From: Deltaproteobacteria bacterium
Lineage (GTDB): Bacteria > Myxococcota > Myxococcia > Myxococcales > Anaeromyxobacteraceae
Reading direction: 5' to 3'
NCBI GenBank assembly: GCA_016214955.1
Contig: JACRMN010000024.1
Coordinates: forward strand, 1-64,000
Length of the DNA stretch: 64,000 bases
Program-made: the position numbers and the translations under genes
Shown: positions 16,366-26,346 of the stretch, piece after piece
How positions within the stretch are numbered: position 1 is the first letter of the stretch
Layout of the letters: every line of letters begins with the position of its first letter
Notes under the pieces: generated by a model
What the model saw: only the letters and a program-made list of their open reading frames with translations
Database searches by the model: none
Told to the model about the DNA's origin: nothing

Positions 16366-17760
16366 ATGCCCAGGATCCCGACGGTGCTCGTCGTCGACGA
16401 CGACCCGAGTATCCGCCAGACCATGGAGACCATCGTCCGCACCGCGGGCATGAATCCCCTCACCGCCTCCAGCGGCGAGGAGGCGCTGCAGGTGCTGCGT
16501 CGCTCCACGGTGGACGTCATGCTGCTCGACGTCCAGCTGCCGGGGATGAGCGGGCTGGAGCTGCTCCGGCAGCTCCGCGACGGGCACCCCGACGTGGGCG
16601 TCATCATGGTCTCGGTGGTGAAGGAGATTCCCATCGCCGTCGAGGCCATCAAGCTCGGCGCCCTCGACTACCTCACCAAGGACTTCTCGCCCGGCGAGCT
16701 CTCGGCCCGGGTCTCCAAGTCGCTGGAGCAGCTCCGCGCGGGGCGCGAGCTGGTATGGCTCCGCGAGGAGGTGGCCACCCGGGGCAACAAGCCCATGGTC
16801 ACCGGCCGCTCGGCCGCCATGAGCGCGGTGGTGGGCATCGCCGAGAAGGTGGCCACCAAGCCGGTGACGGTCCTCATCACCGGCGAGAGCGGCACGGGCA
16901 AGGAGGTCCTGGCCCGCTGGATCCACCAGCGCAGCGAGCGCGCCAGCGGCCCCTTCGTGGCGGTGAACCTCCCGGCCATCCCCAGCGAGCTGGTGGAGAG
17001 CACGCTCTTCGGCCACGAGAAGGGCTCCTTCACCGGCGCCTCTCGGCTGCGCTACGGGAAGTTCGAGCTGGCCAACGCCGGGACGCTGTTCCTCGACGAG
17101 ATCGGCGATCTGAAGCTCGACTTCCAGTCGAAGCTGCTGCGCGCCCTGCAGGAGCACGAGATCGAGCGCGTCGGCGGCGCCCGGCCCATCCAGGTGGACC
17201 TGCGGGTCATCTGCGCCACCAACCGCCCGCTGGAGCGGATGGTGGCCGAGGGGCGCTTCCGCGAGGACCTGTACTGGCGGCTCAAGGTGGTGCCGGTCGA
17301 GATCCCGCCGCTGCGGGAGCGGCGCGAGGACATCCGCGACCTGGCCCAGCACTTCCTCACCCGCTTCGCCGCCGCCTACGGCCGCACCGCTCAGACCCTC
17401 TCGCCAGGAGCGGTGAGCCTCCTCGAGAACTACGCCTGGCCCGGCAACATCCGCGAGCTGGAGAACCTGGTGGAGCGGCTGGCGGTGGTCTGCGACTCGC
17501 CGCTCATCGAGGAGAGCGACCTGCCGCTGGAGGTGGCCCTGGGGGCAGGCCTGGCACGGGAGGCGGAGCGGGAGTCGAGCTACGACTCCGCCATGACGGC
17601 ATTCGAGAAGGGCTACCTGCGCAAGATGCTCGCACAATGCGGGTGGAACCGGCGGCGCGCCGCCGAGCGGCTGGGGATCGGCTACTCCACCCTCAAGGCC
17701 AAGCTGCGCCAGCACGGCCTCTCCCGCTCCGACGGCACCCACGACGGCGACGACGACTAG
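16366..17760 (+). CDS. NtrC-family sigma-54-dependent response regulator
   Basis: A 464-residue three-domain activator of sigma-54 RNA polymerase. The receiver domain (1-120) has VLVVDDDPS and the phospho-Asp in VMLLDVQLPGMSG, with the conserved Lys in DYLTKDF. The AAA+ domain has Walker A GESGTGKEVLARWIH near 168. The sigma-54 contact loop is GSFTGA instead of the usual GAFTGA. A Fis-type HTH ends the protein (WNRRRAAERLGIGYSTLKAKL). It is convergent with a histidine kinase four bases away, its likely partner. Targets may include the radical SAM locus; that is speculative. Confidence 0.9.
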   Translation: MPRIPTVLVVDDDPSIRQTMETIVRTAGMNPLTASSGEEALQVLRRSTVDVMLLDVQLPGMSGLELLRQLRDGHPDVGVIMVSVVKEIPIAVEAIKLGALDYLTKDFSPGELSARVSKSLEQLRAGRELVWLREEVATRGNKPMVTGRSAAMSAVVGIAEKVATKPVTVLITGESGTGKEVLARWIHQRSERASGPFVAVNLPAIPSELVESTLFGHEKGSFTGASRLRYGKFELANAGTLFLDEIGDLKLDFQSKLLRALQEHEIERVGGARPIQVDLRVICATNRPLERMVAEGRFREDLYWRLKVVPVEIPPLRERREDIRDLAQHFLTRFAAAYGRTAQTLSPGAVSLLENYAWPGNIRELENLVERLAVVCDSPLIEESDLPLEVALGAGLAREAERESSYDSAMTAFEKGYLRKMLAQCGWNRRRAAERLGIGYSTLKAKLRQHGLSRSDGTHDGDDD

Positions 17761-17764
17761 GGAC

Positions 17765-19342
17765 CTAGACCGGCTTCTCCAGGTGCTCCAGCAGGATGCG
17801 GAAGGTGCAGCCGGCGCCGGAGCGACTCTCGGCGGTGACCCGCCCGCCGTGGGCCTCGACGATGCGCTTCACGTTGGGCAGGCCCAGGCCCACGTGGGCC
17901 CCCGTGCGCTTGGTCGAGGCGAAGGCGTCGAAGATCCTCGGGAGCCGCTCCGCGGGGATGCCGGCGCCCCGATCCACGATGGCCAGGCCCACCTCGGCGC
18001 CGTGGGTCTCGACCTCGACCCGCACCTCCCCTCCCCGCACCGAGGCCTCGATGGCGTTGGAGAGGAGGTTGAGCGTGGCCCGCTCCAGCAGGTAGCGATC
18101 GGCCATCACCCAGGCGCCGCTGGCCGAGTGCTGCACCGCCAGCCGCACCCCCAGCTTCTCGGCGTGGGGCTCGGCCGTGCGCCGCACGCTCTCGGCGAAG
18201 GCGTCGAGGTCGAGCGGCAGCCGCTCCACCGATCGCACGTCGCGGGACAGGTCGGCGAAGTCGGCCACGAACTTGCGCAGCGTGGCCACCTCGGAGCGCA
18301 GGTTGTCGGCGATGCGCGGCAGGTAGCCGGCCTCGCCGGTCTCGGCCATGCCCGCCGTCTGCTGGAGGATGGCGACCCGGTGGCCCAGGTCGTGGGTGAT
18401 GCCCGCGGCGATGCGTCCGGCGGTGCGCCAGCGCTCCTCCACCTCGAGGTCGGCGAGCACGCGGCGCGACTGGCGCACCCCCACCAGCACCGAGAGCCCC
18501 AGCGCCAGGAGCGAGACCGCCGCCAGCACCAGCTGCGCCGTGCGTGCGGCCCGCAGGGCCTCGGCCGCCGGCTGCTCCACAACCACCGTCCAGCCCCGCT
18601 CCGGGAGCGCCGCCCAGCCGGCCAGCACCTCCTCGCCGAGCGGACCCGGGTAGCGCGTGGGCGCGGCGCCGGGGTCTGCCGAGGCCTGGAGGGCGGCGTC
18701 CCGCTCCGGCACCGGCTCTCCCGTGAGGATGGCAGCCCGGAGCGCCCCCGCGCCCGAGGCGATGAGCCCGCCGCTCCTGTCGAAGGCGAGGGCATAACCC
18801 GACTCGCCCACCTTGATGCGCTGCACGAAGCGCCAGAGCTCGAAGAGGTCGAGCTGGGCACAGACCGCACGGCCGGGCCGGCTCCGCACCGGGACGCAGA
18901 GGTCGAGGGCCGGAGCGCTGCCCTCGTCGAGGTAGATCTCCGAGGTGACCTCGACGCCGGACCGGGCCCGGTCGAGCGCCTGGGCGTCGAGCGCCGCCGG
19001 CCGCTGGGCCGGCAGGGGACCCGGATCGAGGAGCGTGAGGCGCCCCAGGCTCGGGGCGTCGATGGCCACGTCCTCGAGCCGGAGCTCCGCGTCGTCGGCT
19101 CCGCCGGCGGCGGTGGCCACGGCTCGCAGCGCCTCCCGCTGGGCCGCCAGGTAGCCGCCGATGCGGGCCGCCGCCTGGCGCGCCACGAGCGACAGGGTCT
19201 CGCGCGCCGCCGCCTCGCTGCGCCGGCGCAGCGTCTCCACCGCCACCGAGCCGATGCCCAGGAGCGGGACCACGCCGGCCAGGGCCACCAGCACCACCAG
19301 GCGGGCCGCCACCTGGGCGCGGTTCAAGGCGAGACCTCCCAC
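17765..19342 (-). CDS. Membrane sensor histidine kinase with extracytoplasmic (Cache-like) domain
   Basis: A 525-residue kinase. TM1 is near 8-34 (LVVLVALAGVVPLLGIG). A periplasmic sensor of about 225 residues follows, and its layout suggests a double Cache domain. TM2 is LVLAAVSLLALGLSVLVGV near 270. The kinase core has an H-box GITHDLGHRVAIL near 316, N-box NLLSNAIEAS, G1 DRGAGIP and G2 GLGLPNVKRI. Its start overlaps the binding-protein gene, with GTG at 19342 or TTG at 19327 as a TTGA overlap. Coupling to a ligand-binding lipoprotein suggests it senses the same ligand. Confidence 0.88.
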   Translation of the reverse strand: MGGLALNRAQVAARLVVLVALAGVVPLLGIGSVAVETLRRRSEAAARETLSLVARQAAARIGGYLAAQREALRAVATAAGGADDAELRLEDVAIDAPSLGRLTLLDPGPLPAQRPAALDAQALDRARSGVEVTSEIYLDEGSAPALDLCVPVRSRPGRAVCAQLDLFELWRFVQRIKVGESGYALAFDRSGGLIASGAGALRAAILTGEPVPERDAALQASADPGAAPTRYPGPLGEEVLAGWAALPERGWTVVVEQPAAEALRAARTAQLVLAAVSLLALGLSVLVGVRQSRRVLADLEVEERWRTAGRIAAGITHDLGHRVAILQQTAGMAETGEAGYLPRIADNLRSEVATLRKFVADFADLSRDVRSVERLPLDLDAFAESVRRTAEPHAEKLGVRLAVQHSASGAWVMADRYLLERATLNLLSNAIEASVRGGEVRVEVETHGAEVGLAIVDRGAGIPAERLPRIFDAFASTKRTGAHVGLGLPNVKRIVEAHGGRVTAESRSGAGCTFRILLEHLEKPV

Positions 19343-20631: not shown

Positions 20632-20706
20632 TTAGTAGAGCTCGCCGAAGTGGGCGCAGGGGATGGCGGCTCGGGTGGAGCGGCGGGCGGAGATCTTGAT
20701 CGTCAT
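20632..20706 (-). CDS. 24-residue candidate RiPP precursor peptide
   Basis: A 25-codon frame including stop. The ATG at 20704-20706 has GGGAG six bases upstream (ctGGGAGccgaacATG), as good a ribosome site as any in the window. The peptide begins MTIKISARRSTRAA, a basic stretch, and ends IPCAHFGELY with one Cys, one His, two aromatics and a terminal Tyr. It lies 31 bp after a radical SAM/SPASM gene, on the same strand. Short peptides next to such enzymes are commonly their substrates. I do not recognise a named family; the CbpA/CbpB-type cassettes are one comparison to try. There is no direct proof of expression. Confidence 0.7.
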   Translation of the reverse strand: MTIKISARRSTRAAIPCAHFGELY

Positions 20707-20737
20707 GTTCGGCTCCCAGGGGTGTTCGGGGTTGGGT

Positions 20738-22066
20738 TCAGGCAGCGGCGGCGTTCACGGCTTCATCACGGTGGAACTCTTCGAGGTAGCGGCGGCGGAT
20801 CTCCCTGCGGAACTGGTCTTCCAGGAGCGGGCGGTCGCAGGCGGTCTCGCCGAGCCTGCCGCCCGTGGCCACCTTCCCGCCCAGGCAGCCGCCCAGGCAG
20901 ACGGGGACGAAGGGGCAGTCGGGGGCGCAGGCCTTCCAGGGCTCCCCGGCCAGCAGCGGATCGGGCCGCAGGGCCTCGGAGCGCACGTCGCCGAGCGCCA
21001 GCTCGGGTCGGCCGGCGACCGCCAGGCACTTGTAGAGCCTTCCGGATGGGTCGATGGTCCAGGCGTCGTCCCAGTGCAGCTCGCACGGCGCCAGCTGGTC
21101 GACGCCCCGGGGTGCCTGGCGTGTCAGCCCGCGCTGCGACGTCGCCCCGCGCAGCTGCACCAGCGTCTCGGAGGCCCGGCTGCCGCAGGAGGTGGCACAG
21201 CCGCCCTCGACGACGGGCTTGAAGTCCACCGACTTGAGACGGCCGGCCAGCCCGGCGGCGGCCATGCGATCGAGCAGCGCCTCGAAGGAGGCCTCCTGGC
21301 CCTCGCGGAAGTTGCCGCCGACCCGGAGCCGGATCTCGGGGCAGGTGTGGGCCACGGCCACCAGCGCCGCGAAGACGCGGTCGAAGGTTCCCCGGCCATC
21401 GCGATAGACGCGGCCGGCGTCGTGTGTTTCCCGGTCGCCGTCGAGCGTCAGCTTGATCTCGCCCTGGCCCAGGGCCGACAGGCTGCGGGCGAAGTCGACG
21501 TCGAGCGAGACGCCGTTGGTGACGAGCTGCCACTCGAAGGCGCGGCCCATGCGAGCCATCGCGGCCGACAGCCTCGCGGCCGAGCGCAGCACGTAGTCCT
21601 TGCGGGCCAGCGGCTCGCCGCCGATGTAGGCCACCACCAGCTTCTGCGCGGTGGAGCGGGCAACGGCCCTCTCGATCCATTCCAGGGCCGCGGCCTCCAC
21701 CTCGGGCTTCATGTGGCCCTGCGCCGGATGGTCCTTCTGGAAGCAGTAGGTGCAGGCCAGGTCGCAGGCCAGGGTCGGCATCAGCGTGACGTAGAAGCTG
21801 CCGGGGCGCCCGCTGGCCGCGGTGCGGCGGGCCCCGGCCAGCCGCGCCTCGTCCTCGGCCTCGCCCTCCACCAGGAAGCCCAGCTCCCGCAGCGCCTCGG
21901 CCGCCTCCTGCTCGGCGGGGAGCACAGGCCCCCCGCGCCGCCAGCGCGCCAGCGACTCCAGTGCAGCGTCGTCCACTCCGACGTAGCGATCGCTGACGAC
22001 GTCGTAGAGGACGTGTTCGCCGGGCTGCACGTCCCGGTACGGGATCACGAACCGCGAGAGCCGCAT
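20738..22066 (-). CDS. Radical SAM/SPASM peptide maturase
   Basis: A 442-residue enzyme. The radical SAM site is TLACDLACTYCFQKDHP (Cys101, 105, 108, binding a 4Fe-4S cluster and SAM), followed by YIGGEPLARKDYVL and KLTLDGDRETHDAGR. The C-terminal SPASM region has many cysteines, in GGCATSCGSRA, APCELHWDDAW, LYKCLAVAG and CAPDCPFVPVCLGGCLGG, enough for auxiliary Fe-S clusters. Residues 1-70 (FVIPYRDVQPGEHVLYD to LRELGFLVE) resemble a PqqD-like recognition element. The start has GGGGAGGT upstream. A peptide gene follows 31 bp later, suggesting it modifies that peptide. The reaction is unknown. Confidence 0.88.
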   Translation of the reverse strand: MRLSRFVIPYRDVQPGEHVLYDVVSDRYVGVDDAALESLARWRRGGPVLPAEQEAAEALRELGFLVEGEAEDEARLAGARRTAASGRPGSFYVTLMPTLACDLACTYCFQKDHPAQGHMKPEVEAAALEWIERAVARSTAQKLVVAYIGGEPLARKDYVLRSAARLSAAMARMGRAFEWQLVTNGVSLDVDFARSLSALGQGEIKLTLDGDRETHDAGRVYRDGRGTFDRVFAALVAVAHTCPEIRLRVGGNFREGQEASFEALLDRMAAAGLAGRLKSVDFKPVVEGGCATSCGSRASETLVQLRGATSQRGLTRQAPRGVDQLAPCELHWDDAWTIDPSGRLYKCLAVAGRPELALGDVRSEALRPDPLLAGEPWKACAPDCPFVPVCLGGCLGGKVATGGRLGETACDRPLLEDQFRREIRRRYLEEFHRDEAVNAAAA

Positions 22067-22366
22067 GACGACCTCCCCTGAGCAACGCCGATGCCATCGG
22101 GAGTGGATCGCGCGCAGATCTGGGAGGCGATGCACAAGTGCCCGCAGCGCCGGGCTCCGGCTCGATCGCGGGCTCGCGGCTCGCGATCTGGCCGGCGACA
22201 CGCACGCGGCGTCCGGCCGGGGATCGAGCCAGCGGATCCGGCGCAGCGCCAGAGCCCGCCGGAATCCCGCGGCGAATCACACTCCGAGTGCAGCGGCCAG
22301 GGATCGAGCCTGCACGGTCAGGCCGCGGGCCGCCAGGTGGCCCCCGACTTGCTTGGGATCAGCCGC
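22067..22366. other. Divergent intergenic region upstream of the radical SAM gene
   Basis: This 300-bp gap separates the radical SAM gene (minus) from a small unknown gene (plus). GGATCGAGCC occurs twice (near 22220 and 22303) and its complement GGCTCGATC once (near 22155), so three related half-sites flank the gap centre and could bind a regulator. A sigma-54-like element lies at the right end. No other gene is visible. Confidence 0.45.
22338..22353 (+). promoter_or_regulatory. Possible sigma-54 promoter
   Basis: TGGCCCCCGACTTGCT has GG (22339-22340) and GC (22351-22352) with the correct 10-bp gap and the TTGCT end of the -24/-12 consensus (TGGCACGnnnnTTGCW), with two mismatches. The predicted start near 22364 nearly coincides with the GTG of the next gene, which would make its mRNA almost leaderless. 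In GC-rich DNA such matches also occur by chance. Confidence 0.3.
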
Positions 22367-22588
22367 GTGAACCGCGACGACCTCATCGAAGTGCGCGAAA
22401 TCCGCACCGGCGGGAAGCGGGTGGTTGTCCAGCTCTACCGCAACGCCGGCGGATCGGTGGCAGCTCGCTTCCTGCTGGGCGAGGCAGACATGCCCATCAT
22501 CGACGCCGACAGCGTCGAGGAGGCACTGGCGACAGCCGCCGATGCCCTCGAGGGCGCGCTCCTGGCGCGGGCCGCGTCGGGGCGCTGA
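22367..22588 (+). CDS. Small unknown protein (73 residues)
   Basis: The protein (VNRDDLIEVREIRTGGKR, VVVQLYRNAGGSVAARFLLG, then an acidic ADSVEEALATAADALEGAL helix) has a beta-beta-alpha look and no known motif. The frame stays open upstream but turns into low-complexity Arg/Pro sequence, so GTG at 22367-22369 was chosen as start. No strong ribosome site is visible. Function unknown. Confidence 0.45.
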   Translation: MNRDDLIEVREIRTGGKRVVVQLYRNAGGSVAARFLLGEADMPIIDADSVEEALATAADALEGALLARAASGR

Positions 22589-24268: not shown

Positions 24269-25669
24269 TCAGGCGTCGTCCTCCCCCGCCGCCGCACCGG
24301 CGCGTTCGCTGGCTCGTGCGGCGTAGCGGTGGAGCTTGTTGTAGAGCGTCTTCTCGCTGATGCCCAGCAGCTCGGCGGTGCGGGCCTTGTTGCCGCCGTT
24401 GCGCCGCAGCGAGGCGAGCACGTACTCCTTTTCCACCTCGCGCAGCGGGATCCCCAGCGGCATCTGCAGGGCGGCGGCGCTGCCCCCACCGGCGGCCTGC
24501 GGCCGCATGTCCGGCGGCAGGTGCTCCTCGCCGATCATGTCGCCGTCCACCAGGATCATGCCGCGCTCCACCGTGTTGCGGAGCTCGCGGATGTTGCCGG
24601 GCCAGGCGTATGCCTGGAGCACCGCCATGGCTTCGGGCGTGGCGCCGTGGACGTGCTTGCCGGTCTCGCCGGTGAACTTCTCGATGAAGTGCTGCACCAG
24701 CAGCGGCACGTCCTCGCGCCGCTCCCGCAGCGGCGGGAGGTGCACGGTGAAGACGTGGAGGCGGAAGTACAGGTCCTCGCGGAAGCGCCCGGACCGGATC
24801 TCCTGCTTCAGGTCCCGGTTGGTGGCACACAGCACCCGGACGTCCACCTCCACCTCCGCCTTGCCGCCCAGGCGCCGCAGCTTCCGCTCCTCCAGCACCC
24901 GGAGGAACTTGCCCTGCATCTCCAGCGGCAGCTCGCCGATCTCGTCGAGGAAGAGCGTGCCGCCGTGGGCCATCTCGAAGTTGCCGAGCCGCCGCTGGTC
25001 GGCGCCGGTGAAGGCGCCGCGCTCGTATCCGAAGAGCTCCGACTCGATGAGCGTGGGCGGGATGGCGGAGCAGTTGAGGGCCACGAAGGCCTTGTCCTTG
25101 CGGGGGGAGAGGCCGTGGACCGCGCGGGCCACCACCTCCTTGCCCGTGCCGCTCTCGCCGGTGATCACCACCGAGGCGTTGGACGGAGCCACCTTCTTCA
25201 CCAGCTCGGCGACCCGCTGCATCGCCGGACCCTGCCCGATGAGGTCGGTGCCCGGCGCCATGGCCGCCAGGCGGCGGCGCAGGAGCTGGACCTCGCGCAG
25301 GGTCTCCTTCTTCTCCAGGGCCCGCTCCAGCACCACCCGCAGGCGGGCCGGGTCCAGCGGCTTCTCGATGAAGTCGTAGGCCCCCTCCTTGATGGCCTGG
25401 ACGGCGGTCTGCACCGTGCCCTGCCCGGTGATGAGCAGCACCGGCAGGTCGGGCAGCTCGGCGCGCACCGCGCGCAGGAGCCAGAGCCCGTCCATGTTGG
25501 GCATGACCAGATCGGTGAGCAGCACGTCGGGGTGCCACTCGATGGCACGGCGCAGGGCGTCGGTGCCGTCGTCGGCGGTCAGCACCTCGTACCCCCAGCG
25601 CTGGGTGAGCTCGGCCAGCGCGTCGCGGCCGTCTGGCTCGTCGTCGACGATGAGCAGCCTGACCCTCAC
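24269..25669 (-). CDS. NtrC-family sigma-54-dependent response regulator
   Basis: A 466-residue activator. The receiver (1-120) has LLIVDDEPDGRDAL, phospho-Asp in VLLTDLVMPNMDG and the conserved Lys in DFIEKPLD. The AAA+ domain has Walker A GESGTGKEVVARAVH, an intact GAFTGA loop (YERGAFTGADQRR), Walker B GTLFLDEIGELPLEMQ, and a Fis-type HTH end (NKARTAELLGISEKTLYNKLH). The GTG at 25667-25669 overlaps the kinase stop by four bases. The selenoprotein gene follows, so this regulator may control thiol stress functions; that is inference from position. Confidence 0.92.
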   Translation of the reverse strand: MRVRLLIVDDEPDGRDALAELTQRWGYEVLTADDGTDALRRAIEWHPDVLLTDLVMPNMDGLWLLRAVRAELPDLPVLLITGQGTVQTAVQAIKEGAYDFIEKPLDPARLRVVLERALEKKETLREVQLLRRRLAAMAPGTDLIGQGPAMQRVAELVKKVAPSNASVVITGESGTGKEVVARAVHGLSPRKDKAFVALNCSAIPPTLIESELFGYERGAFTGADQRRLGNFEMAHGGTLFLDEIGELPLEMQGKFLRVLEERKLRRLGGKAEVEVDVRVLCATNRDLKQEIRSGRFREDLYFRLHVFTVHLPPLRERREDVPLLVQHFIEKFTGETGKHVHGATPEAMAVLQAYAWPGNIRELRNTVERGMILVDGDMIGEEHLPPDMRPQAAGGGSAAALQMPLGIPLREVEKEYVLASLRRNGGNKARTAELLGISEKTLYNKLHRYAARASERAGAAAGEDDA

Positions 25670-26346
25670 CGGCCCTCCGCCCGCAGGCGGAGGGCGGCGC
25701 CCGCGGCACCTTCCCTCTGCCACTGCTCCAGCCGCCCGCCCACCGCCGGGGCACTCTCGGCAACGGCCGCGGGGATCCACGGCGTGCCGGGCTGGCCGGC
25801 GGCCGCCCGCCACTCCACCGCCAGGATCACCTCGTCTCCATCGCGCCGGCAGCGGAGGCGCACCCAGCCGCCCGACCCGGTCTCCTCCAGGGCGCGCCAG
25901 AGGAGCCCCATCCACATCCGCCCCACCCGGATCGGGTCGCCCCGGGCCTCGAGCGCGGCGAGGGCCGGCTCGGCCTCCAGCGTCACCTGGCGGCGCCGCG
26001 CCTCGTGCTCGAAGAGCGCCACTCCCTCGGCCATCAGCCGCGCCGGCGCGCAGGTGGAGCCCGACGGGCGATCGGCGGCGTCGAGGTAGGCGCGCACCGC
26101 GCCGTCCACCCGCCCGATCTGCTCGCGGAGCTTGGCCAGGGTGCCGGCGCAGGTGGCCGCCAGCCCGGCATCGGCGGCGATCTTCTCGGTGAGCAGTGCC
26201 ACCTGTAGCGCCATGGCGTTGAGCGGGTTGCGCACCTGGTGCGCCAGACCCGACGCCGCCCGTGCCAGCGCCAGCCCCTGCATGGCCAGCTCCGGCGTCT
26301 CGGCCGCGCCGGGGCCGGCCTCGGAGTGTCCCTCGTTCGTCCCCAT
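25666..26346 (-). CDS. Degenerate soluble histidine kinase
   Basis: A 226-residue cytosolic protein. The HisKA dimerisation helix has an intact H-box (ARAASGLAHQVRNPLNAMAL, near residue 36). The following ATPase-like region lacks the N-box Asn (WMGLLWRALEETGSG aligns where N-L-x-x-N-A is expected) and has no D-x-G-x-G box; it ends GAAGAALRLRAEGR. It may accept phosphate from another kinase, like a phosphotransfer protein, or act as a regulator of its coupled NtrC partner. The downstream regulator overlaps it by four bases. No membrane segment or sensor domain is visible. Confidence 0.72.
   Translation of the reverse strand: MGTNEGHSEAGPGAAETPELAMQGLALARAASGLAHQVRNPLNAMALQVALLTEKIAADAGLAATCAGTLAKLREQIGRVDGAVRAYLDAADRPSGSTCAPARLMAEGVALFEHEARRRQVTLEAEPALAALEARGDPIRVGRMWMGLLWRALEETGSGGWVRLRCRRDGDEVILAVEWRAAAGQPGTPWIPAAVAESAPAVGGRLEQWQREGAAGAALRLRAEGR

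Follow-up and report, generated by a model that had tools for sequence, protein, structure and literature searches.

A putative sigma54 operon encoding a probable radical SAM-modified peptide, a binding protein and a sensor kinase: a candidate peptide signalling locus in Myxococcota

Organization of the locus and conservation of the peptide and its maturase

The DNA analysed here, henceforth the window, is a stretch of 64,000 nucleotides from a member of the Anaeromyxobacteraceae (contig JACRMN010000024.1). A first-pass annotation had reported in it a radical SAM/SPASM enzyme accompanied by a peptide of 24 residues. Both are present at those positions; the peptide ORF starts 31 nt downstream of the enzyme stop codon, and a GGGAG ribosome-binding site lies close ahead of its ATG. 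Beyond that annotation, the pair was found to sit in a sigma54 operon with a binding protein and a kinase, and a response regulator is encoded close by (Table 1). That enzyme, peptide, oligopeptide-type binding protein and dCache kinase belong to one predicted sigma54 operon is well supported by the sequence.

Table 1. Genes and putative regulatory sites of the locus, with positions in the window
Feature	Position	Strand	Remarks
NtrC-type sigma54 response regulator (receiver, AAA+, Fis HTH)	16366..17760	+	Convergent with the operon
Histidine kinase, dCache-type periplasmic sensor	17765..19342	-	Shares 19 nt with the binding-protein gene
SBP_bac_5 (oligopeptide-type) solute-binding protein, probable lipoprotein, 418 aa	19324..20580	-	At the equivalent position in every orthologous locus reaching there
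Precursor peptide, 24 aa + stop, MTIKISARRSTRAAIPCAHFGELY	20632..20706	-	Homologue at the equivalent site in 12/12 orthologous loci with sequence past the enzyme
Radical SAM/SPASM peptide maturase, 442 aa, RRE-like N-terminal fold	20738..22066	-	TIGR04280 195 bits; PF04055; 3+7 invariant Cys; CteB fold match
Sigma54 promoter TGGCATCGGCGTTGC of the enzyme-peptide-binding protein-kinase operon	22082..22096	-	TGGCAY-N5-TTGC in 13/13 orthologues
Enhancer-like palindrome GGCTCGATCGCGGGCT	22159..22174		Exact pattern match
Enhancer-like palindrome GGCCAGATCGCGAGCC (minus-strand reading)	22178..22193		Exact pattern match
Enhancer-like palindrome GGCTCGATCCCCGGCC (minus-strand reading)	22215..22230		Exact pattern match
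Enhancer-like palindrome GGCTCGATCCCTGGCC (minus-strand reading)	22295..22310		Exact pattern match
Sigma54 promoter TGGCCCCCGACTTGC of the small gene	22338..22352	+	TGG-N8-TTGC at -28 to -31 in 12/12 orthologues
Small gene, 73 aa, predicted beta4-alpha fold	22367..22588	+	Divergent from the enzyme gene and upstream of it

Up to 195 Myxococcota genomes were searched, and the 13 found to carry the enzyme, from two families of the order, were all examined. One contig (G047) stops inside the enzyme gene, hence 12 loci are informative on the peptide; in G039 the peptide was read across two overlapping contigs. All 12 have, downstream of the enzyme gene, a short ORF preceded by a ribosome site. The encoded peptides keep a basic leader, K-x-S-x-R-x-S/T-x-R, and one cysteine at a fixed place, residue 17 or 18 throughout. 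In an alignment of the 12 peptides anchored on this cysteine, S at -11, R at -9, S/T at -7, R at -5 and the cysteine itself are invariant. In the three close pairs tested dN/dS was below 0.3, the values being rough for such short sequences. The occurrence at 12 of 12 loci, the invariant S, R, R and C positions and the low dN/dS thus indicate that the short ORF is a real precursor.

The tail following the cysteine is the fastest-changing part of the peptide. It spans 5 to 10 residues and varies in both sequence and length (AHFGELY in the window; SIVAE, GAGHS, PNMIG, PMMVDNNP, GMIVISPPVA, TIMIDNMP, MSLVY, IMILVPNIS and SMVVG elsewhere). The residues are mostly aliphatic, with no conserved ligand set, and no conserved cross-link acceptor was seen in the tails of the aligned peptides. 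The last residues differ in almost every species; a C-terminal tyrosine occurs in two of the 12 peptides, that of the window among them. Conservation of the tail IPCAHFGELY had been proposed as the check on the pair, and a tail that varies beside a conserved enzyme had been named as grounds against it. To the letter, the latter is what the orthologues present: the tail is hypervariable while leader and cysteine are kept. A conserved leader with a variable core is, however, ordinary for a RiPP, and the variable tail therefore strengthens this reading. With an adjacent, co-conserved short precursor consisting of leader and modifiable core at 12 of 12 loci, enzyme and peptide almost certainly represent a RiPP maturase/precursor pair, as the first-pass annotation had suggested. 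No exporter, protease or signal sequence for the peptide was seen at the locus.

The enzyme has the cysteine pattern of a RiPP maturase. The radical SAM triad (C101-x3-C105-x2-C108) and the complete set of SPASM cysteines (C328-x13-Gx4-C347 ... C380/C384/C390/C394 ... C410) are invariant in 14 homologues, which bears out the CxxxCxxC motif and C-terminal cysteines noted earlier and makes 3 + 7 in all. The N-terminal part had been called PqqD-like. Pfam gave no match to this part, while the AlphaFold model places there a strand-strand-strand-helix-helix arrangement resembling an RRE. The best PDB match of the enzyme, by sequence and by fold, is CteB, a maturase that forms thioethers and carries an RRE domain. 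On the strength of this match one cross-link is proposed, from the invariant cysteine into the tail. By analogy, the chemistry is somewhat more probably thioether formation than any other; a lone invariant cysteine and a CteB-like enzyme fit a ranthipeptide or sactipeptide thioether without proving one. Among the relatives, two loci (L045 in G049 and L043 in G051) have an enzyme frame that is interrupted or continues into that of the peptide, which in these draft genomes may be assembly error or decay. A second radical SAM enzyme of the window's genome (L030, G000:C1:209365-210111) is 38% identical to residues 30-284 of the maturase.

The small protein was predicted with a pLDDT of 90 and matches no Pfam family and no PDB fold. 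Its gene stands beside the enzyme gene with an intact frame at 12 of 13 loci, the frame being broken in G047, and is absent from relatives lacking the enzyme.

Sigma54 promoters, enhancer-like sites and the sensory genes

The -24/-12 element TGGCAY-N5-TTGC is conserved at a fixed place, 28-31 nt before the enzyme start codon, at 13 of 13 loci. Shuffled upstream sequence gives such a promoter about once in 10,000 trials per locus (chance about 1e-4), and in the 64-kb window the pattern matches only there, against 0.09 matches expected. Tandem palindromes lie between this promoter and that of the small gene; in the orthologues, too, they occur between the two promoters, near GGCYNGAWNNCNRGCY. 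In the window's genome the pattern GGCYNGATCSCNRGCY has 10 exact matches, four of which are in this intergenic region. As the pattern was fitted to the window's own sites, recovery of all four is not independent evidence, and only its scarcity elsewhere is. The six remaining matches all fall in coding DNA and lack a well-placed sigma54 promoter, the single sigma54-like match near any of them being about 1.5 kb away. By the exact enhancer pattern, no second target of the regulator was found in this genome.

In the Myxococcota loci the gene order is enzyme, peptide, SBP_bac_5 protein, dCache kinase and then the convergent NtrC-type regulator. Wherever a contig continues past the peptide into the next gene, that gene encodes the binding protein; the kinase and regulator are present where the contig extends far enough. 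In G039 and G051 a second contig carries binding protein, kinase and regulator, arranged likewise, and in G047 a separate contig carries kinase and regulator. The regulator accompanies the promoter-bearing operon wherever a Myxococcota locus extends to that point, and among nine genomes searched its orthologue (77-82% identity) was found only in those bearing the enzyme. Judging from these sequence relationships, control of the sigma54 operon by this NtrC-type regulator is highly probable. The convergent regulator is the likely activator of both the operon and the divergent small gene, and we infer that it acts on the four enhancer-like sites. A second sigma54 regulator/kinase pair is encoded nearby in the window (24269-26346, minus strand); it is conserved in the family with or without the peptide system.

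The binding protein of the window scores 31.0 with Pfam SBP_bac_5, just below the cut-off of 32.4. In a profile search its best matches were oligopeptide-binding proteins (4oet, 1xoc), and MbnE and nickel/metallophore binders were matched as well. No permease gene lies beside it at the locus. It is the fastest-changing protein of the set: over the six Myxococcota genomes with all parts, mean pairwise identity is 38% for the binding protein, 57% for the enzyme, 59% for the small protein, 60% for the kinase and 71% for the regulator. Between G059 and G035, whose peptide tails differ, identity is 75% for the enzymes and 42% for the binding proteins. Such divergence would be expected of a receptor tracking a changing ligand, and equally of plain relaxed constraint. 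A variable mature region, a conserved leader and a fast-diverging receptor are found together here as in peptide pheromone systems, a combination that is suggestive only.

Four relatives (G003, G004, G016 and G019; loci L105, L102, L104 and L103) retain only the binding protein and kinase in the syntenic block. The flanking genes are in place, and enzyme, peptide, small gene and regulator are jointly absent. Genome-wide searches of the four returned only regulator paralogues of 45-46% identity, in contrast to the 77-82% orthologues in two other, enzyme-bearing genomes searched; for G016, where the contig ends at the kinase, absence of the regulator rests on the genome-wide search. The kinases retain a recognisable H-box. 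Since the complete set is present in the other family and partly in Desulfobacterota, the joint absence appears to reflect loss and not an ancestral state. The pairs left behind could be remnants that only receive, or they could have a different function.

Recurrence in Desulfobacterota and relation to known systems

The best family match of the window enzyme is TIGR04280, the geopeptide maturase model, which it matches over its full length. Of 395 Desulfobacterota genomes scanned with this model, 40 had a match at E<=1e-50, and in 30 of these 40 it exceeded the family cut-off; 28 regions were retrieved, 20 and then 8. The layout recurs in this second phylum. Four sub-cut-off loci (in G178, G540, G232 and G158) have the enzyme, a downstream single-Cys peptide, an SBP_5 protein and a full-length match to the dCache kinase. 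TGGYAY-N5-TTGC lies upstream in all four, and the regulator is adjacent in three. Two of the four (L093, L094) have, in addition, a gene for a TonB-dependent receptor, placed between those of the sigma54 regulator and the enzyme. The four were picked from the 395 genomes for showing the layout and thus establish recurrence, not frequency; at six other weak homologues among the second eight regions (L090-L092, L095-L097) the layout is absent or the contig ends too soon. In one of these, L092 in G310, the gene of the related enzyme precedes that of another short peptide, MKVIKVGKKYGRVHPMGCCWYIYGGYMLGF, and a flippase-like gene, and the contig ends soon after.

Geopeptide maturases share with the window enzyme the domain build and short peptide partners, besides being its best full-length family match. 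The family cut-off, however, is 400 bits, and the window enzyme and its scored relatives reach at most 195; the Desulfobacterota members with the layout also stay below 400. In the tree the Myxococcota enzymes (support 100/100) and the geopeptide enzymes (100/99) form separate clades. The former group with the four Desulfobacterota enzymes and two others, apart from the geopeptide enzymes, with moderate support (83/90). Candidate peptides at the above-cut-off loci (L070-L089) are mostly upstream, with an acidic leader and mostly a CC motif, whereas the window-type peptide is downstream, with a basic leader and a single cysteine, and does not have the features of a geopeptide precursor. Neither a sigma54 promoter nor a comparable binding protein-kinase-regulator module was found at the above-cut-off loci read. 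On cut-off, peptide type and tree, membership of the geopeptide family was rejected; in sequence the enzyme is nearest to geopeptide maturases, yet in a separate clade. Several genomes carry two TIGR04280 loci, and several loci gave no recognisable peptide candidate. The comparison with CbpA/CbpB cassettes made in the first-pass annotation was abandoned on the score of the CbpB model TIGR04163, 33 bits with a cut-off of 375, against 195 bits for TIGR04280.

With the CteB/SCIFF ranthipeptide maturases the enzyme shares the SPASM cysteines for two auxiliary clusters and the RRE-like N-terminal fold. SCIFF precursors, however, have six cysteines, compared with one cysteine and a different leader here, and the present hosts are Gram-negative and have a binding protein, a kinase and a sigma54 regulator alongside. 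Participation in clostridial quorum sensing is listed for SCIFF peptides (PMC8326336). Streptococcal RaS-RiPPs are radical-SAM-modified short peptides tied to peptide signalling (PMC8326336; PMC13361665). Their control is by cytoplasmic Rgg, whereas here a periplasmic binding protein, a kinase and a sigma54 regulator are encoded. NtrC-type sigma54 two-component systems have in common with this locus the receiver-AAA+-Fis regulator, tandem palindromic upstream sites and -24/-12 promoter, but the operon here includes its own sensor kinase together with a peptide-binding protein, a RiPP precursor and the maturase for it. In literature searches covering few subscription journals, no paper found named geopeptide or TIGR04280, and searches on radical SAM or RiPP with Anaeromyxobacter or sigma-54 returned nothing on the system.

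Proposed circuit and alternative readings

We propose, with a probability of roughly 0.5, that the locus makes a radical-SAM-modified short peptide which regulates its own production through the binding protein, kinase and regulator. The leader (S-x-R-x-S-x-R) would dock on the RRE-like N-terminal domain of the enzyme, which would join the single conserved cysteine to one of the 5-10 tail residues, a thioether being the likeliest bond. After its release, the tail would be exported by a route outside the locus. Captured by the periplasmic binding protein, it would signal via the kinase to the regulator, so that the circuit would feed back positively on itself. Species specificity would then lie in the two rapidly diverging parts, tail and binding protein, much as it does in peptide pheromone systems. 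We infer self-sensing of this kind at close to even odds. The fullest form of the proposal, a Gram-negative pheromone system with a species-specific cross-linked peptide, a periplasmic binding protein, a dCache kinase, sigma54 feedback and receptor-only descendants, is tentative and stands a little below an even chance.

The peptide could instead be a RiPP with some other job, as an antagonist or a protective or structural product, made through the sigma54 regulator once binding protein and kinase respond to an outside signal, for example foreign peptides, with no self-sensing. Binding protein and kinase persist without enzyme, peptide and regulator in four genomes and so can be retained for a different use; nutrient sensing is a frequent role of dCache and SBP_5 domains, and no exporter is linked to the locus. 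A purely external cue accords less well with the inclusion of the binding-protein and kinase genes in the induced operon, with a tail that varies between species when the leader does not, and with the sole enhancer-like cluster, by exact pattern, being located here. This reading, while unlikely, deserves consideration.

It appears improbable that the peptide is a scavenging, metallophore-like molecule whose supply is governed by the two-component system and which is taken back up through the binding protein and, in some bacteria, a TonB-dependent receptor. The TonB-dependent receptor genes at two Desulfobacterota loci and the profile matches to MbnE and metallophore binders would agree with it, but the peptides have one cysteine and mostly aliphatic tails without a conserved ligand set, and the Myxococcota loci have neither such a receptor nor a permease. 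Conversion into a small redox cofactor, as with PqqA and MftA, is very improbable, short though the precursor beside its SPASM enzyme is and even with the terminal tyrosine of the window peptide. In cofactor precursors the residues destined for the cofactor are conserved; here these would lie in a C-terminus that differs in almost every species, and the variable C-terminus disfavours this reading. No linked oxidoreductase was found.

Modified-peptide signalling is known mainly from Gram-positive bacteria. At this locus conserved gene order and promoter, together with joint absence, connect a maturase and its peptide with a binding protein, a kinase and a sigma54 activator, and a 24-residue peptide too short for most gene callers thereby gains a proposed receptor. 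As a rule for searching further genomes, one may look for SPASM genes that are preceded by a sigma54 promoter and followed by genes for a binding protein and a kinase. The locus thus represents a candidate modified-peptide signalling system of Gram-negative bacteria, present in 13 genomes of soil bacteria.
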